NCBI GenBank assembly: GCA_022827045.1
Contig: JAJDTQ010000124.1
Span: 1-47,257, forward strand
Length of the DNA: 47,257 bases
Direction of reading: 5' to 3'
Source: Candidatus Binatia bacterium
Lineage (GTDB): Bacteria; Desulfobacterota_B; Binatia; UBA9968; JAJDTQ01
Below, in pieces: positions 40,926-47,257 of the stretch (positions are counted from its first letter, which is position 1; the number at the start of each line of letters is the position of its first letter). Below the pieces are notes generated by a model, which saw only the letters and a program-made list of their open reading frames with translations, did no database searches and was not told the origin of the DNA. The position numbers were made by a program, and so were the translations under genes.

Positions 40926-40945
40926 TACTCGGACAGGCTCCTAGG
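40926..40945. repeat. 20-bp direct repeat, copy B
   Basis: TACTCGGACAGGCTCCTAGG, identical to 24839-24858. The stop codon of the HEAT gene lies inside it. Confidence 0.75.
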
Positions 40946-43079
40946 CGCCGCCCAGGGCTTCCAGAACCAGCCGAAGCCCTGGCCTCGATACCCCGGGAAC
41001 GCTCAACATCCCGATCAACCCCCGTGTCACCTCGATGTGACGCACGCATGCGTCCATGAGGCTGTCGGCCCGGCCGCCGTCCACCAGCACCCGCAGGCCG
41101 TCTTCAAGCAAACGATCCTCGCCTGCCGCGATGACGGCGTCCACAGCGGCTCGGCGGACCAGGGACGAGGAGTCGTGAAAACCCGCCGCGGCTCTCGCCG
41201 GATGGACGGCGGCAACCGCCGTCACCGCCGCCGCCCGGACCGAGGGGTCGGGGTCGTCCAGCAGCGGGATGAGTTGTCGCGCGTGGTCGAGACCCGTCGC
41301 GGTCAGGCCGCGGACGGCGGCGCAACGCACGCGCGCATCGTCGGAGCCCAGTGACCGCGCCAGGACAACCCGCAGGACGGGCGCCAACGGCATGGCCGCC
41401 GCGCGCTGGGCGATGGCCTCGAAGACGCCCGCCCGCAGGTCGGATTCCGTCGACAAGGCGGTTTCCGCCAGCACCTCGTCCATGCCCTCGACGGCGCAGT
41501 CCGCGGCAAGCCGGACCGCCATCAGACGAATATCGGCCTCTACGTCGTCAACGCCTTCCACCGGCACGCGGCGGGACCGGACTCGCCCCGCGCCAGGAGG
41601 AGACGGTGGAGGATCGTGGGACGGTACGGTCGTCCCAGGCTCCGCTGCCTGAATCGCTTCGAGGGTGGATCGGGGGAACAGCGGCGCTTTGGCAACGCCG
41701 CCCGAGAGGGCAGCGGATGCTTCCAGCTCAGGCACGTCGGCGGCCACGATGCCGCCCGCGGGAGTTATGGCGACCGGTCCGCTCCCGGCGGAACCGGCCG
41801 CCGCGTGACCCGGAGCGTCATCGATTGCATCCGCGCTGCCGAACGGGCGGGACCGGAGATTGCCGCGCATGGCCTCGATCAAGAGATCTCGCGCCTGCCG
41901 CCGGCTCTCCTCGGAGGCGCCGCGCGTCATTGCCGCGGCTGCCGCCAGGGCGGCCACCCGGACCTGTCGGACCAAACCCGCCGCCGCCGCGGACAGCGCG
42001 GCGAGAGCCTCTCGGGTGCCGATCTCCCCCAATGCCTTGAGCGCGGCGATGCGTACCTCGGCAAGCCGTTCTCCGTCCGCCGCCGTGTCTCGCAGCGCGC
42101 TCGCCGCCCCTGCCCCCATCACCCTGGGCAGCGTTGACGCACACGCCGCGGCCAGGCGCGGGTCACTCTCCCCAAGCCAGGCCGTCAGCTTTGCGGCGAT
42201 CGACGGTTCGTCGGCGGAGGAGAGGTGCGGCGCCAGCCCTTCGAGAGCCGTGGCGCGGACATGGGGATCGGGATCGGCAAGCGCCGCGCGGCCCAGGTCC
42301 GGTGCCCCCGAGGCAACGCGCCCCACTGCGATGGCGCGGACCGAAGCCTCCGGATCCTTCAATACCAAGGCGGACAATGCCGCGTCTCCCGCATACAGGC
42401 ACTCCGCGGCAAGCCGGCGAACGCCCGGGCTCGGGTCGGCGACCAGGCGGTCGCGGAGCGGCGCCAGCCGATCCCGCCCGGCCCGCGACAGCGCCGCCAG
42501 GGCACGCTCCCGGACCCGCCCGTTGCCGTCCTTCAGGAAATCGAGGAGAGCCGCGACTCCCCGCCCGGGCATCTTCGCCAGGGCGGCGAAGACCACGTGG
42601 TCGAGCTCCTGCCCACCCTCGTCGGCACGCGCCCGGATCAGGTCGTCCACCGCGGACTCGGCGCCCATGTCCCCCAGGGCCGTGATGGCGGCCACCTGCA
42701 CGTCCAGCCAATCGTCCCACGAACCCTCCTCCCACGCCACCTCCGACCCGCATCGATCCCGCGCCAGCGCCCGCAGCAACTCCGTGGACGCCGCGTCCTT
42801 GAGCCGGCCCAGGGTCCGCACGGCCGCGGTCTTGACCTCGCCCGCCGGATCGCCCTGCAACGAGCGCCGGATCGCCGGCGCGTCCTGCGGCCGGGCGCAA
42901 CGCACCAGCGCCGCCATGGCATCGGCCCGCACGTCCGGGTCCGGGTCCAGCAGCGCGTCCACCAGAGCCGGCGCCGCGTCCTCGTCGCCCAGCGCGCCGA
43001 GAGCGCGCGCGGCGGCGCAGCGAATCGGTTCCTCCGGCGCTTTCAGATGGGGCGAGATGATCCGTACGGGATCAGTCAC
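40941..43079 (-). CDS. HEAT-repeat protein
   Basis: A 712-residue protein made of repeated 30-40 residue helical hairpins with the HEAT pattern (for example EEPIRCAAARALGALGDEDAAPALVDAL, and repeated DPDPDVRADAMAAL-type helices). There is no signal peptide, and a Pro/Ser-rich linker near residue 500 splits two repeat blocks. HEAT solenoids are protein-binding scaffolds; no partner is evident, although the molybdoenzyme operon lies just upstream on the same strand. The gene is flanked by near-identical 28-bp direct repeats and separated from the molybdoenzyme by a strong hairpin. Specific function unknown. Confidence 0.8.
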   Translation of the reverse strand: MTDPVRIISPHLKAPEEPIRCAAARALGALGDEDAAPALVDALLDPDPDVRADAMAALVRCARPQDAPAIRRSLQGDPAGEVKTAAVRTLGRLKDAASTELLRALARDRCGSEVAWEEGSWDDWLDVQVAAITALGDMGAESAVDDLIRARADEGGQELDHVVFAALAKMPGRGVAALLDFLKDGNGRVRERALAALSRAGRDRLAPLRDRLVADPSPGVRRLAAECLYAGDAALSALVLKDPEASVRAIAVGRVASGAPDLGRAALADPDPHVRATALEGLAPHLSSADEPSIAAKLTAWLGESDPRLAAACASTLPRVMGAGAASALRDTAADGERLAEVRIAALKALGEIGTREALAALSAAAAGLVRQVRVAALAAAAAMTRGASEESRRQARDLLIEAMRGNLRSRPFGSADAIDDAPGHAAAGSAGSGPVAITPAGGIVAADVPELEASAALSGGVAKAPLFPRSTLEAIQAAEPGTTVPSHDPPPSPPGAGRVRSRRVPVEGVDDVEADIRLMAVRLAADCAVEGMDEVLAETALSTESDLRAGVFEAIAQRAAAMPLAPVLRVVLARSLGSDDARVRCAAVRGLTATGLDHARQLIPLLDDPDPSVRAAAVTAVAAVHPARAAAGFHDSSSLVRRAAVDAVIAAGEDRLLEDGLRVLVDGGRADSLMDACVRHIEVTRGLIGMLSVPGVSRPGLRLVLEALGGA

Positions 43080-43200: not shown

Positions 43201-45882
43201 TTATTCCAGGGCGATGTCGCGGCGGGCGAACGACATGCTGCGGAACTGGCGCTTGTAGGGGCTTTCGCCCATGCGCCGCAACCGTCCCACGCCCATCTTG
43301 TAGTTGTAGTTGCCGCTGATCCAGTCCACCACCCGGCCCGAGAGGGCGTTGGCCGGCTGGCTGGTCTGCAGGAAGTCGGTGAAGCCGACGCCCTTCTTGA
43401 TGGCCGGCGTCACGATCACCACCGCGGTGATGGCGCCGCGGGTCAGCTCGATGTAGCCGTTGCGAAGGAGCGCGGCGAAGTCGAAATCGTCGGCCTCGAT
43501 GCCGAGAATGGTTTCCTTCTGCACCGGGATGCGGTCGGAATGGATCATCGCGTAGTCGCCCGACTCCAACCCCCGCGCGCGGGCATCGTCCGGATGAAGC
43601 TCGATCCAGTTCTCGGGCCAGCGCTGCTCGATGTAGGGGCGCCGCCGGTCGTCGTAGCCCGACTGCCAGCGCTCGTTGATACGGCCGGAGGTGATCCAGA
43701 TCTCCCCTTCCCGGGGCTTCATCCACTCCCAGTAGCTGGAGAAGAGCTCCCACGGCGCCTTCTGGAGATTCAGTTTCCCGGTCTGGGTGTTGAAGTGCGT
43801 CAGCTTCTTGTTGAACACCGTGGCGCCGGCCGGGCCGTCGTCCGGCAGTACCCGGTTCACGTCGTGGAGCCGCTTGGTCTCCTCCAGGGTGCCGTCGGCG
43901 CGCATGAGCACCGGGCCCTGGATGCCGTTGGTGCCGAACTCCCGGAGCTTGTCGTGAAGGGTCTTGCCCTCGCGCCGGGCCGCCACCTTGACCGCGAAGA
44001 AGTCCTTGCGCGAGCCGCGGGAGAAGCGCGCTCCCTCCTCCAGCACCTGGTTGGAGTCCTCCCAGTCGAAGCCCTCGAAGCCCATCTTCCGCGCCAGTCG
44101 GGCGATGATCCACCAGTCCGGCCGGGCCGCGCCGGGAGCGTCGTAGAACTTGGGGTAGAGGCGGATGCGCCGCTCGCCGTTGGCCCGGGTGAAGGTCTCC
44201 TCGCCCCAGCCGGCGGCCGGGAACACGATGTCGGCGTAGCGCGCGCCGATGGGGTCCACCAGATAGATGTCCTGGTGCCACACCACCATGCCGCCCGAGT
44301 CCGTCCGCTGCTTCAGGGTCTCTACTACGTCCTTGCGGTCGAAGCTCCGCACCTGGTGCGGGTTGCGCGTCGTCAACTCGTCGAACTTCTCCTGCAGCGA
44401 CTGGGTGCCGCACATGCCCTGGACCCAGGTGTTGCCGATGACGTGGGCGAGACGGGTATGACCAGCCATCAGGTAGCGGTCGGTATCCAGCGCCCTCCGG
44501 CGCCGGCCCGGCAACTTTTCCGGGCTCTTGTTGCGCGGGTAGCTGCCGCCCCGAAGGCCGCCGCGCTGGTGTCCGCCGGCCCGCCCCACCACCTGGCCGG
44601 GCCGCCCGCCGGCGCCGCAGACGATGCCCAGGGAAGCGATGGCGTTGGTGTTGCCGGTGTTGTTGGACCAGTAGCAGCCCTTCTCGATCATGATGGAGGT
44701 CTTGGGCCGGGACCCGTCCTCGCGCGGCTTCGCCATCCATTCGGCGGCGGTATGGATCTTCCGGACGTCGATGCCAGCGATGGCCGCGGCTTTCTCCGGC
44801 ACCGTGTAGTCCTGGGCCAGCAGCCACTTCTTCCAGTCCTCGAACCCGTCGGTCTGGAACATTCCCCAGGTGGTGCGCCACTGCCACGGCGTGTTGCGCG
44901 TGCCCTGCCCGAACCCGGATGAGCTTTCCCACTTGGAGTTGACCCACTTGCGGATCCACTCGCCGTCCTCCCAGCCGTTCTCGACGATCACCCGGGCGAT
45001 GGCCATCAGCACCGGCAGGTCAGTGCCCGGCTGGATGTCGATGTACATGCCGCCCTGGCTTTCCGCGTAGGCTACGCCGGCGGTGCGGCGCGGCAGCATG
45101 AAGATCGTCCTCTGCCCGTTCTGGATGCCAGGCATGACCCAGTCGGTAAACAGGATGGTCTTGGTCTCGTAGGGGTCGGTGCCGCAGATCAACAGCACTT
45201 CGGCGTCGCGCCAGTCCTCGTAGGACGGCCCGAAGTTGTCCAACCCCGCATCGCGAAAACCGGGCGTGGAGGTGACGTCCGACGGCGTGTCGTGAAACGT
45301 GAAGTTCGCCGTGCGCACGTTGCGCAGGGCGTACTTGGTGATCGCGTAGGTGTTCTCGAGATAGCCGTAGGAGAAGGTCTTCACGGCGTAGGCGTTGGTG
45401 CCGTGCTTCGCCAGGACGTAGTTGCCCACCTCGGCCGCGACGTCGAGGGCGAAGTCCCAGGTCACCGGCATCAGCACCCCGAAGATCCGCACCAACGGCG
45501 ACCGCAACCGGTCACGGGTAGGCTTGTCGGGGTTGTAGACCTTCTGCGCGATCAGGCCGCCCCGGACCGAGGAGTTGCCGGTGTGATTGACGAAGTCGGT
45601 GTCCTTGTCGGGAAGGATGACCACGTGGTGGGGCCGGCCTTCGTGCATCACGATGTTGTGCTGATCGCCGCTGACCCAGTAACCAAGGGGTTCCACGGGG
45701 AAGTCCGCGCCGAGGGCGTTCTCGGCGGCGCTCGGGCCGCCGTTCTTCCCGCCCCGCACGGGCCAGCGATACACCTTGTAGCCGCAAGCCACCACGCAGT
45801 AGTCGCACGCCGTGGAGATGACCTCCGCGTCCGGGGGCGGCAGCGGCACGCTCTGTTCAGGGACGTGATACGGAGTAGCCAT
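43201..45882 (-). CDS. idrA: Molybdopterin catalytic subunit, arsenite oxidase/iodate reductase (AioA/IdrA) family
   Basis: An 893-residue DMSO-reductase-family enzyme. The cluster site C26-DY-C29-VVA-C33 followed by Ser104 in NSSVRGG is the [3Fe-4S] arrangement of AioA (three Cys and a Ser). Arg434 and His438 (GRAGGHQ) align with two arsenite-binding residues of AioA, but the region matching its first His/Glu reads DTPSDVTSTPGFRDAG, without that histidine. No Tat signal; it would be carried out with its Rieske partner. ATG 45882 has GAGG; a GTG at 45897 overlaps the Rieske stop. With the peroxidase-like gene, the set fits iodate reductase (IdrA) better than arsenite oxidase. Substrate is inferred. 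Confidence 0.75.
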   Translation of the reverse strand: MATPYHVPEQSVPLPPPDAEVISTACDYCVVACGYKVYRWPVRGGKNGGPSAAENALGADFPVEPLGYWVSGDQHNIVMHEGRPHHVVILPDKDTDFVNHTGNSSVRGGLIAQKVYNPDKPTRDRLRSPLVRIFGVLMPVTWDFALDVAAEVGNYVLAKHGTNAYAVKTFSYGYLENTYAITKYALRNVRTANFTFHDTPSDVTSTPGFRDAGLDNFGPSYEDWRDAEVLLICGTDPYETKTILFTDWVMPGIQNGQRTIFMLPRRTAGVAYAESQGGMYIDIQPGTDLPVLMAIARVIVENGWEDGEWIRKWVNSKWESSSGFGQGTRNTPWQWRTTWGMFQTDGFEDWKKWLLAQDYTVPEKAAAIAGIDVRKIHTAAEWMAKPREDGSRPKTSIMIEKGCYWSNNTGNTNAIASLGIVCGAGGRPGQVVGRAGGHQRGGLRGGSYPRNKSPEKLPGRRRRALDTDRYLMAGHTRLAHVIGNTWVQGMCGTQSLQEKFDELTTRNPHQVRSFDRKDVVETLKQRTDSGGMVVWHQDIYLVDPIGARYADIVFPAAGWGEETFTRANGERRIRLYPKFYDAPGAARPDWWIIARLARKMGFEGFDWEDSNQVLEEGARFSRGSRKDFFAVKVAARREGKTLHDKLREFGTNGIQGPVLMRADGTLEETKRLHDVNRVLPDDGPAGATVFNKKLTHFNTQTGKLNLQKAPWELFSSYWEWMKPREGEIWITSGRINERWQSGYDDRRRPYIEQRWPENWIELHPDDARARGLESGDYAMIHSDRIPVQKETILGIEADDFDFAALLRNGYIELTRGAITAVVIVTPAIKKGVGFTDFLQTSQPANALSGRVVDWISGNYNYKMGVGRLRRMGESPYKRQFRSMSFARRDIALE

Positions 45883-45893
45883 GGCAACGGTCC

Positions 45894-46469
45894 TCACGAC
45901 TGGAGATTGTCGAACCGGCCGTATATCAGGCCGAACATGCCCACGGCATAGATATCATCGCCTTCGAGTTCCAGCAGCACCTGGGGTAGCGACTGGTACG
46001 CCTGTCCCGAGATGAAGATGCCGTGGCGGGTCAGGTCGAAGGTGGTGAGGTGCAGCGGGCACGGCCCCAGCGCCTTGTCGCCGGCCTGGTACGTGCCCTG
46101 AAGCGGGCCCCCCTGGTGCGTGCAGGTATAGTTGAAGGCCACTACGTCCCGGCCGGGCCCGATGCCGCCGCCTGCCGGCGTGCCCAGCTTCGCCAGGATC
46201 GACTCCGCGTATTCCCCCTCGTCCGGATATTCGAAATCGACGGGCTCATCGAGTTCCAGCGCCGATAGCTTGCCGATGAGCTTGCGCGGGTAGGTGGATA
46301 CCACCGCCGGCGTCTGCGCCCCGGTGCGCCCGGGAATGCCGACCATGATTACAGCGGTGGTGATGCCGCTCCACAGGAGAAAGCTGCGCCGGCTCACGAG
46401 GCAGGACGCCGGGGCTTCCCCTTCCGCGCCACCCGCCGGGCCGGCGAGGTTTAGGCAGGATATCGTCAT
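45894..46469 (-). CDS. idrB: Rieske [2Fe-2S] small subunit with Tat signal (AioB/IdrB)
   Basis: A 191-residue electron-transfer subunit. The Tat signal SRRSFLLWSGITTAVIMVG lies at 26-44, placing the mature protein in the periplasm, with the Rieske ligands C116-T-H118 and C137-PL-H140. The C-terminal GQAYQSLPQVLLELEGDDIYAVG matches AioB. Its stop overlaps the GTG alternative start of the catalytic gene, so the two are coupled and presumably exported as one complex. The long leader before SRR is slightly unusual but still fits. Confidence 0.85.
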   Translation of the reverse strand: MTISCLNLAGPAGGAEGEAPASCLVSRRSFLLWSGITTAVIMVGIPGRTGAQTPAVVSTYPRKLIGKLSALELDEPVDFEYPDEGEYAESILAKLGTPAGGGIGPGRDVVAFNYTCTHQGGPLQGTYQAGDKALGPCPLHLTTFDLTRHGIFISGQAYQSLPQVLLELEGDDIYAVGMFGLIYGRFDNLQS

Positions 46470-46504
46470 GGTACTGTCCTCCGGTGCCGGCGTGGAACCC
46501 GGCG

Positions 46505-47257
46505 CTACGACCCCTTCCCGCCGGGAGGCGGCAGCGGCTGCATCACCGGGAGATCCGGCGTCTCCATCAGGATTTCCTTGCCCGAGAGACTTTGAAGGAA
46601 CGCCACCAGGTCACTCATCTCCGCGTCGGCGAGGCCCAAGGGCCGGATCAACGGACTCTTGGTGGCGGCGAACTCGTTCTCGCCGCCACCGCCGTTGTAG
46701 AACTCCACCACGTCACGCAGGGTCGCCAGCATGCCGTTGTGCATATAGGGGGACGTGTACCTGGTGAAGCGGAGGCTCGGGGTACGGAACTTGCCCAGGT
46801 GCTTCTTCTCCTTGGTGCGGAAGTAGAGACCCGGGTCGTCCTTGGTCTTGCGGTACATTTCTTCGGTGACGCCCTTGGCATAGAGCTCGAAGCGGAAGGT
46901 GATCTGCGCCACCGCATCGTCCTCCCAACCCTCGTAAGGGGGCACGCCGACGTTGTGGTACTTCTCGTCCGTCAGCAGCGGCCCGTGGTGGCAGGCGATG
47001 CAGTTGGCCTTGCCGGCGAAAAGCGCCAGGCCCCGCTTCTGCGACGCGTCCAGCGCGGCGTCGTCGCCGCGCATGTAGCGGTCGAAGGGCGTGTCGGTCT
47101 GCACCAGCGTGCGCTCGAACGCGGCGATGGCCATGTAGGCGTGGCGGATGTTGGGCCAGTCGTCGCCGAAGACCTCCTTGAACCGCCGCCGGTACTCGGG
47201 CACGAAGGCGAGCCGCGCCTCCATCATGTCGTCCTCGCCGTTGCCCGCCACCGCGCC
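46505..47257 (-). CDS. Di-haem cytochrome c peroxidase-like protein, C-terminal part (IdrP-like)
   Basis: About 250 residues of a di-haem peroxidase (MauG/CCP family); the N-terminal part lies beyond the window edge. CIACHHGPLLTD is a CxxCH haem motif, and FRTPSLRFTRYTSPYMHNGMLATLRDVVEFYN is the C-terminal family signature (the methionine-containing YMHNG). The first haem site is not in view. It ends 35 bases before the Rieske gene and is transcribed with it. Such peroxidases accompany Idr operons, where they are thought to remove reactive oxygen by-products; they are not part of typical arsenite oxidase operons. Confidence 0.75.
   Translation of the reverse strand, partial: GAVAGNGEDDMMEARLAFVPEYRRRFKEVFGDDWPNIRHAYMAIAAFERTLVQTDTPFDRYMRGDDAALDASQKRGLALFAGKANCIACHHGPLLTDEKYHNVGVPPYEGWEDDAVAQITFRFELYAKGVTEEMYRKTKDDPGLYFRTKEKKHLGKFRTPSLRFTRYTSPYMHNGMLATLRDVVEFYNGGGGENEFAATKSPLIRPLGLADAEMSDLVAFLQSLSGKEILMETPDLPVMQPLPPPGGKGS

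Follow-up and report, generated by a model that had tools for sequence, protein, structure and literature searches.

Genes at the right end of the window

The stretch analysed here, referred to as the window, comprises 47,257 nucleotides of contig JAJDTQ010000124.1 from an uncultured Binatia-type lineage. At its right end the minus strand carries a gene for a di-haem peroxidase, then one for a Rieske subunit, then one for a molybdopterin catalytic subunit. From their sequences we assign these genes with good confidence to an iodate reductase (idr) operon of the order idrP1-idrP2-idrB-idrA, in which idrP1 would lie beyond the window edge and a gene for a HEAT-repeat protein stands behind idrA. 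All features described below are on the minus strand.

The catalytic gene idrA (43201..45897) starts with GTG, with an ATG five codons further in as a possible alternative, and encodes an 898-residue protein that matches PF18465, PF00384 and PF01568 and scores 422 bits against the NCBIfam model TIGR02693 (cut-off 359). It overlaps idrB (45894..46469) by 4 bases. The IdrB protein scores 117 bits against TIGR02694 (cut-off 95.65) and, with both scores above cut-off, the family level is settled, although TIGR02693 does not separate IdrA-type proteins from AioA, the catalytic subunit of arsenite oxidase. In IdrB, motif searches identify both parts of the Rieske ligand motif and the twin-arginine motif RRSFL; the same type of search finds no RRxF[LI] motif in IdrA. 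The [3Fe-4S] site of IdrA consists of C31-x2-C34-x3-C38 (codons 31-38, 45784..45807) together with a serine that aligns with the AioA serine. These features bear out the initial annotation, which had described a peroxidase, a Tat (twin-arginine translocation)-borne Rieske subunit and a catalytic subunit in that order on one strand, with a three-cysteine-plus-serine cluster site in the last.

The peroxidase gene idrP2 (46505..47257) is of the CCP/MauG kind and has its 5' end outside the window. Its visible part encodes 250 residues with one haem motif (CIACH at residue 86), the other motif lying past the window edge, and corresponds, at 96% identity, to residues 131-380 of the 380-residue P2 protein of the nearest genome, G001. 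The IdrP1 and IdrP2 proteins resemble the MbnH/MauG/CcpA di-haem family in matching PF03150 and in having 6e1c ('Di-heme enzyme') as their best solved-structure match. They fall below the cut-offs of TIGR04039 and TIGR03791 and so are not members of those equivalogs.

In G001, where the catalytic subunit is 96% identical to that of the window, P1 (11682-12785), P2 (12791-13933), the Rieske gene and the catalytic gene follow one another on one strand, and a c-type cytochrome gene is divergent upstream. The second peroxidase gene anticipated by the initial annotation is present upstream in close relatives: the two peroxidases occur together, in idr order, in the same-genus genomes G001, G002, G004, G005 and G006. 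The catalytic gene was found in four of the nine genomes of the genus (G001, G002, G004 and G005), and in G006 the cluster is divided between two contig ends, one with P1, P2 and part of B, the other with the end of A. No catalytic gene was found in G003, G007, G008 or G009, of which G007 is 76% complete. Besides its 96% identical idrA, G004 contains a second idrA fragment (L098, G004:C922; 86% identical) that is either a second copy or contamination (contamination estimate for this genome, 7%).

A wider scan of genome contigs confirmed 92 loci, the best 80 of which were kept for an order count. The order P1-P2-B-A is present in all 70 of these that have at least 3.1 kb upstream of the catalytic gene; among the ten remaining short loci two are complete, three have P2-B, three have B only and two have nothing upstream. 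Vibrio and Azonexus plasmid loci have two peroxidases, B and A, and a Thiothrix locus starts at A and hence is uninformative on peroxidases. No peroxidase is annotated within 3-5 kb in any of ten aio-type plasmid loci, the gene tables of these plasmids being incomplete. This pattern agrees with the published description of idrABP1P2 as kept in idrA-clade neighbourhoods and of aio neighbourhoods as devoid of peroxidases (PMC8692401), a distinction that the initial annotation had also drawn.

Tree position and active site of the catalytic subunit

We placed the catalytic subunit on a tree of 52 IdrA-type rows, hand-chosen from 352 and so named by synteny and similarity rather than by assay, and ten AioA-type rows. 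The tree was built by a quick method with supports from the Shimodaira–Hasegawa-like approximate likelihood ratio test, and the program raised a flag for two long AioA-like rows and for places where long branches join. The window sequence groups with the IdrA-type sequences, apart from the ten AioA-type rows, which split off with support 100. It clusters with its own genus (five rows, one of them a 97% identical database protein; support 100) inside a 16-row set (support 100) made up otherwise of eleven alphaproteobacterial rows. Rows of Afifella, Pelagibius, Kiloniellaceae, Denitrobaculum and Sulfitobacter make up the group nearest to the genus (support 94). Among the matches listed, the best database rows outside the genus are marine alphaproteobacterial IdrA-type proteins at 81-85% identity; in the scan of genome contigs, Pelagibius litoralis and Sulfitobacter algicola reach 84%. 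Azonexus-like rows are about 50% identical and AioA about 26-30%. Of the two identities offered by the initial annotation, an iodate reductase or a new enzyme between AioA and IdrA, the first is favoured by the tree and the peroxidase pair; the second is not supported, given the nesting of the window sequence within alphaproteobacterial IdrA-type rows.

An AlphaFold model of IdrA (mean predicted local distance difference test score (pLDDT) 79.1, predicted template modelling score 0.84) has arsenite oxidases as all 11 of its 11 top PDB matches. Among the matches listed, those IdrA-type database proteins that carry a name are labelled arsenate reductase (azurin) or arsenite oxidase large subunit.

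The second-sphere residues of the arsenite oxidase of strain NT-26 are Asp169, His199, Arg201, Glu207, Lys413, Arg447, His451 and Glu453 (PMC10448176), and the set given for A. faecalis is H195, E203, R419 and H423 (PMC3758308). Their equivalents in the window, in NT-26 order, are Ser176, His202, Thr204, Ser210, Lys406, Arg439, His443 and Arg445. Half of the eight are thus kept (His199, Lys413, Arg447 and His451), and half are changed (Asp169 to Ser, Arg201 to Thr, Glu207 to Ser and Glu453 to Arg). The initial annotation had noted an Arg-x3-His pair, which is indeed present as the ends of R439-A-G-G-H443 in the segment R439-A-G-G-H443-Q-R445 (44563..44583). It had also argued that the region of the first arsenite-binding histidine lacks a histidine, and in this it was mistaken: His202 (45292..45294), in the stretch FTFHDTPS, aligns with His199 of NT-26 and His195 of A. 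faecalis. The member missing from the His/Glu/Arg/His set is instead the glutamate (Glu203 in A. faecalis, Glu207 in NT-26), replaced by Ser210 (45268..45270).

Residues were counted in 261 database rows and in 91 locus rows, the latter including the window itself and two rows, L081 and L095, from the same genome; some of the rows are near copies. The Asp169 position, Ser176 in the window (45370..45372), is Ser in 91 of 91 locus and 260 of 261 database rows. The His199 position is His in every row of both sets, and Lys413, Arg447 and His451 are likewise invariant. At the Glu453 position Arg is found in 90 locus and 261 database rows, with Cys in one. The Arg201 position is more variable (Thr in 81 locus and 136 database rows, Lys in 3 and 120, others in the rest), as is the Glu207 position, with Ser in 84 locus and 140 database rows, Asp in 3 and 120, Glu in 3 locus rows and Ala in 1 of each. 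Asp is thus found in 120 of the 261 database rows, and a single search supplied 120 of these 261. Overall, the pattern S-H-K-R-H-R at NT-26 positions 169, 199, 413, 447, 451 and 453 is present in 350 of 352 IdrA-type rows and D-H-K-R-H-E in nine of ten AioA-type rows, the AioA letters at the individual pocket positions being found in 9 or 10 of those ten.

In AioA, Asp169 and Glu453 are located at the mouth of the funnel, and substituting Ala for them cuts activity by 30 and 65%; Glu207 is bonded to the Mo=O group (PMC10448176). The loss of these acids would suit an anionic substrate, for example iodate, better than the uncharged arsenous acid. Not all IdrA-type rows share the Glu207-to-Ser change, as Azonexus-like rows have Asp and three deep rows Glu.

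Ser206 of the window aligns with NT-26 Ala203, a position that we take to be the metal-ligand site of other dimethyl sulfoxide reductase-family enzymes. Serine ligation of molybdenum through this residue was considered and dropped, since the residue is not general: Ser occupies the position in 83 of 91 locus rows and in 189 of 261 database rows, the rest having Ala, Gln or others.

A HEAT-repeat gene behind idrA

Behind idrA lies a gene for a 712-residue HEAT-repeat protein (40941..43079; PF13646 and other matches) that we propose as a fifth gene of the cluster. Downstream sequence was surveyed in 83 loci (L008-L090), 68 of which qualified, with at least 1.5 kb of sequence following an idrA match complete up to residue 850. 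A relative of the window HEAT protein is the next gene after idrA, on the same strand, in 59 of these 68 (E value 1e-6); many of the 59 are close kin (Ruegeria, Roseibium) and hence are not independent events. At this threshold no relative was found after idrA in the loci of SAR324 and of a deltaproteobacterium (L071, L072, L076 and L082), in Emcibacter L079, Vibrio L088, Azonexus L089 and Thiothrix L090, or in L084. Despite the similarity-search miss, Pfam identifies a 669-residue HEAT-repeat open reading frame (ORF) directly after idrA in L084, and long HEAT-repeat ORFs stand in the same place in two deep loci outside the 68-locus count, L144 (G025) and L145 (G182). These three proteins may or may not be of common descent with that of the window. 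The idrA match in L145 falls into two parts with one reported TAA, yet the frame is open for 919 residues, so that the division is probably an insert and not a break. In the related loci L072 and L082 a shared ORF with a hydrophobic start and the stretch NGGSVSGxVLLKGKVPNPERIAVAK replaces the HEAT gene.

The HEAT gene also tracks idrA across genomes. Seven idr genomes searched whole have exactly one HEAT match each (E value 1e-10). Among 295 genomes of the Ruegeria family, idrA (E value 1e-150) is present in 15, a HEAT relative (E value 1e-10) in 13 and both in 12, that is, in 12 of 15 idrA-bearing genomes and 1 of 280 others (hypergeometric chance 8e-18, uncorrected for kinship). In the 12 shared cases the HEAT match starts 56-179 bases past the idrA match. 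The genomes with idrA only are G505, where idrA is cut at a contig end, and G566 and G583, where idrA is just 50-52% identical; the genome with a HEAT relative only is G429, in which the gene lies 900 bases from a contig start and no idrA match was found. Within the nine genomes of the window's own genus a HEAT relative (E value 1e-60) is present in G001, G002, G005 and G006, all of which have idr genes, and was not detected at this threshold in G004, whose idr contig ends within idrA, or in the four idr-less genomes.

The HEAT model (pLDDT 84.9) consists of two HEAT solenoids (residues about 4-404 and 513-711) joined by a floppy linker. The best 50 matches listed in a fold search are general scaffolds such as importins, CAND1 and PP2A subunits, and indicate no function. 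It could tentatively be proposed from the gene's position and distribution that the protein is a helper for the folding, cofactor loading or export of IdrAB, a role to which we would give less than an even chance. It is also possible, though we rather doubt it, that the gene contributes nothing to iodate reduction and is a mere neighbour inherited together with the rest of the block. HEAT repeats are widespread and change rapidly, nine of 68 loci have no relative beside idrA (the Azonexus and Thiothrix plasmids among them), and elsewhere other genes stand behind idrA, namely those for a cupredoxin-like protein and a porin (G332, L142) or for a 4Fe-4S protein (G044, L143). Shared descent alone sits less easily with the retention of the gene downstream of idrA where the HEAT proteins outside the genus are 22-46% identical to that of the window, with 20 invariant columns, including W116, W121, W124 and Q128, in an alignment of 24 hand-chosen rows. 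The 12-of-15 against 1-of-280 distribution, and the HEAT-repeat ORFs in one of the nine misses and in the two deep loci, also argue against it.

A literature search, in which most subscription papers were out of reach, found no HEAT-repeat protein linked with iodate reductase. Word searches of PMC8692401, PMC10149662, PMC8801600, PMC10746228 and PMC11445184, figures and supplements aside, gave no HEAT protein; the neighbourhood figures of PMC8692401 may show the gene unnamed. Although most relatives have it beside idrA, the gene was not found described as part of the idr system.

Function, host and history of the block

The closest described counterparts of the operon are the idrABP1P2 clusters (iodate reduction island) of Pseudomonas sp. 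SCT and Denitromonas sp. IR-12; these likewise combine an AioA-like subunit without its own signal, a Tat-type Rieske subunit and two CCP-like di-haem proteins (PMC8692401). The window differs from them in the HEAT gene after idrA, in its Binatia-type host and in having Ser at the Glu207 position, where Azonexus-like rows, through which this comparison with SCT and IR-12 was made, have Asp. Nearer in sequence are the idr genes of marine alphaproteobacteria (Roseovarius azorensis and relatives; PMC11445184), which have the same order and, beside most of the idrA genes examined, the HEAT gene, but belong to another phylum. The deletion of idrA in Denitromonas abolishes growth on iodate (PMC8692401). 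A marine alphaproteobacterium bearing the cluster has been shown to reduce iodate, with induction of idr (PMC11445184), and is by analogy the nearest functional support for the window's operon.

The window's system is proposed to work as follows, with the electron route and the role of the peroxidases taken from the published Denitromonas model (PMC8692401). IdrA would be folded and loaded with bis-molybdopterin guanine dinucleotide molybdenum and [3Fe-4S] in the cytoplasm, possibly with the HEAT protein as a cytoplasmic helper in folding or export, and would leave the cytoplasm on the Tat signal of IdrB. In the periplasm, a c-type cytochrome would hand electrons of the quinol pool to the IdrB Rieske cluster, from which they would pass through [3Fe-4S] to molybdenum; there iodate would be stripped of oxygen, first to hypoiodous acid and in the end to iodide. 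The pocket, keeping the inner cationic set His202, Lys406, Arg439 and His443 without the AioA acids, would favour an anion such as iodate. The two di-haem peroxidases would remove peroxide or a similar oxidant.

Several observations weigh against reading the operon as an iodate reductase. The host is uncultured, its use of iodate is a prediction from genes, and idrP1 lies outside the window. The assayed proteins (SCT, IR-12, DN11 and R. azorensis) were not found by name among the at least 120 matches listed per database search, in which most rows are nameless. All confirmed iodate respirers up to 2022 belong to one small ten-genome clade (PMC8801600), which we take to be the clade of the Azonexus-like rows. 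In these rows the Glu207 position is occupied by Asp and not by Ser, and the HEAT gene is absent from the two of their loci with downstream sequence (L089 and L090). Glu itself is retained at the Glu207 position in three deep IdrA-type rows (L084, L101 and L102). Finally, in the short SAR324 locus L076, B and A are present but the 2.2 kb upstream of B gives no peroxidase match; this locus is possibly a true exception to the gene order.

We consider it unlikely that the main substrate is a different oxyanion (bromate, chlorate or a mixed halogen oxyanion), that iodate is only a side substrate, and that the enzyme serves detoxification in an aerobic host rather than respiration. That its pocket departs from that of the Azonexus-like clade at two positions, Arg201 and Glu207, would fit this. 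Against it, idr transcripts of R. azorensis respond to iodate and an active band contained IdrA (PMC11445184), and no sequence feature was seen that points to another oxyanion. Arsenite oxidase (AioAB) with an accidental peroxidase neighbour is most improbable: despite the TIGR02693 equivalog match, the database name arsenate reductase (azurin), and the fold, [3Fe-4S] site and four pocket residues shared with the NT-26 and A. faecalis enzymes, this identity is rejected on the tree split at support 100, the low identity to AioA, the four changed pocket residues out of eight and the peroxidase pair conserved in 70 of 70 loci.

The remainder of the window (1-40849) contains ordinary genes, among them those for phosphoenolpyruvate carboxykinase, polyphosphate kinase, hydantoinase B, an antiporter, a LysR regulator and a formyltransferase; a Pfam scan covered 20 of the 49 long ORFs listed, 4 of the 20 without a match.

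Binatia form part of Candidatus Binatota, whose order Bin18 has been linked to sponges, with hosts including Rhopaloeides and Aplysina (PMC8262859, PMC9999580), and the window's lineage is likely to be sponge-associated. The cluster has previously been recorded in an Endozoicomonas isolated from a sponge (PMC8692401). A word search of the Binatota paper PMC8262859 returned no mention of iodine, and a literature search found, among the titles listed, no paper on idrA in Binatota or on iodate in sponge symbionts.

Four further idr genomes occur among 395 of the same phylum. Because these lie on distant branches of the tree and the idrA genes of the window's genus are nested in alphaproteobacterial ones, the idr block was likely transferred from alphaproteobacteria to this genus. 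In the idr-less genomes G008, G009 and G003 the two genes that flank the block are adjacent, with 282-532 bases between them. Between the flanks G008 has 93 bases that match the end of the cytochrome gene and 191 bases that span the start of an ORF assigned to the amidohydrolases by Pfam, and G003 has 69 bases that match the end of the HEAT gene. These remnants point to loss of the block in G008 and G003, and given them we do not favour the idr-less genomes as an ancestral state with clean insertion. No block remnant was found between the flanks in G009, and in G007 the flanking gene searched for is absent.

It is conceivable, if somewhat doubtful as a whole, that the idr systems of marine alphaproteobacteria, the Binatia genus and some deep lineages have a dedicated fifth part, a HEAT protein that matures or guides IdrAB; that replacement of the pocket acids Asp169, Glu207 and Glu453 by Ser, Ser or Asp, and Arg accounts for the switch between arsenite oxidase and iodate reductase; and that the lineage of the window acquired the complete block from marine alphaproteobacteria and, within an animal host, converts iodate to iodide with it.

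The window would add a Binatia-type lineage with sponge-dwelling relatives to the hosts of idr clusters, and presents the HEAT gene as a conserved candidate part of the idr system. The contrast of S-H-K-R-H-R with D-H-K-R-H-E separates IdrA-type proteins from AioA and names residues for a substrate-switch test, in a group whose named members among the matches listed are called arsenate reductase or arsenite oxidase in databases. Bacterial iodate reduction matters for the supply of iodide in the sea and for the clean-up of radioiodine.

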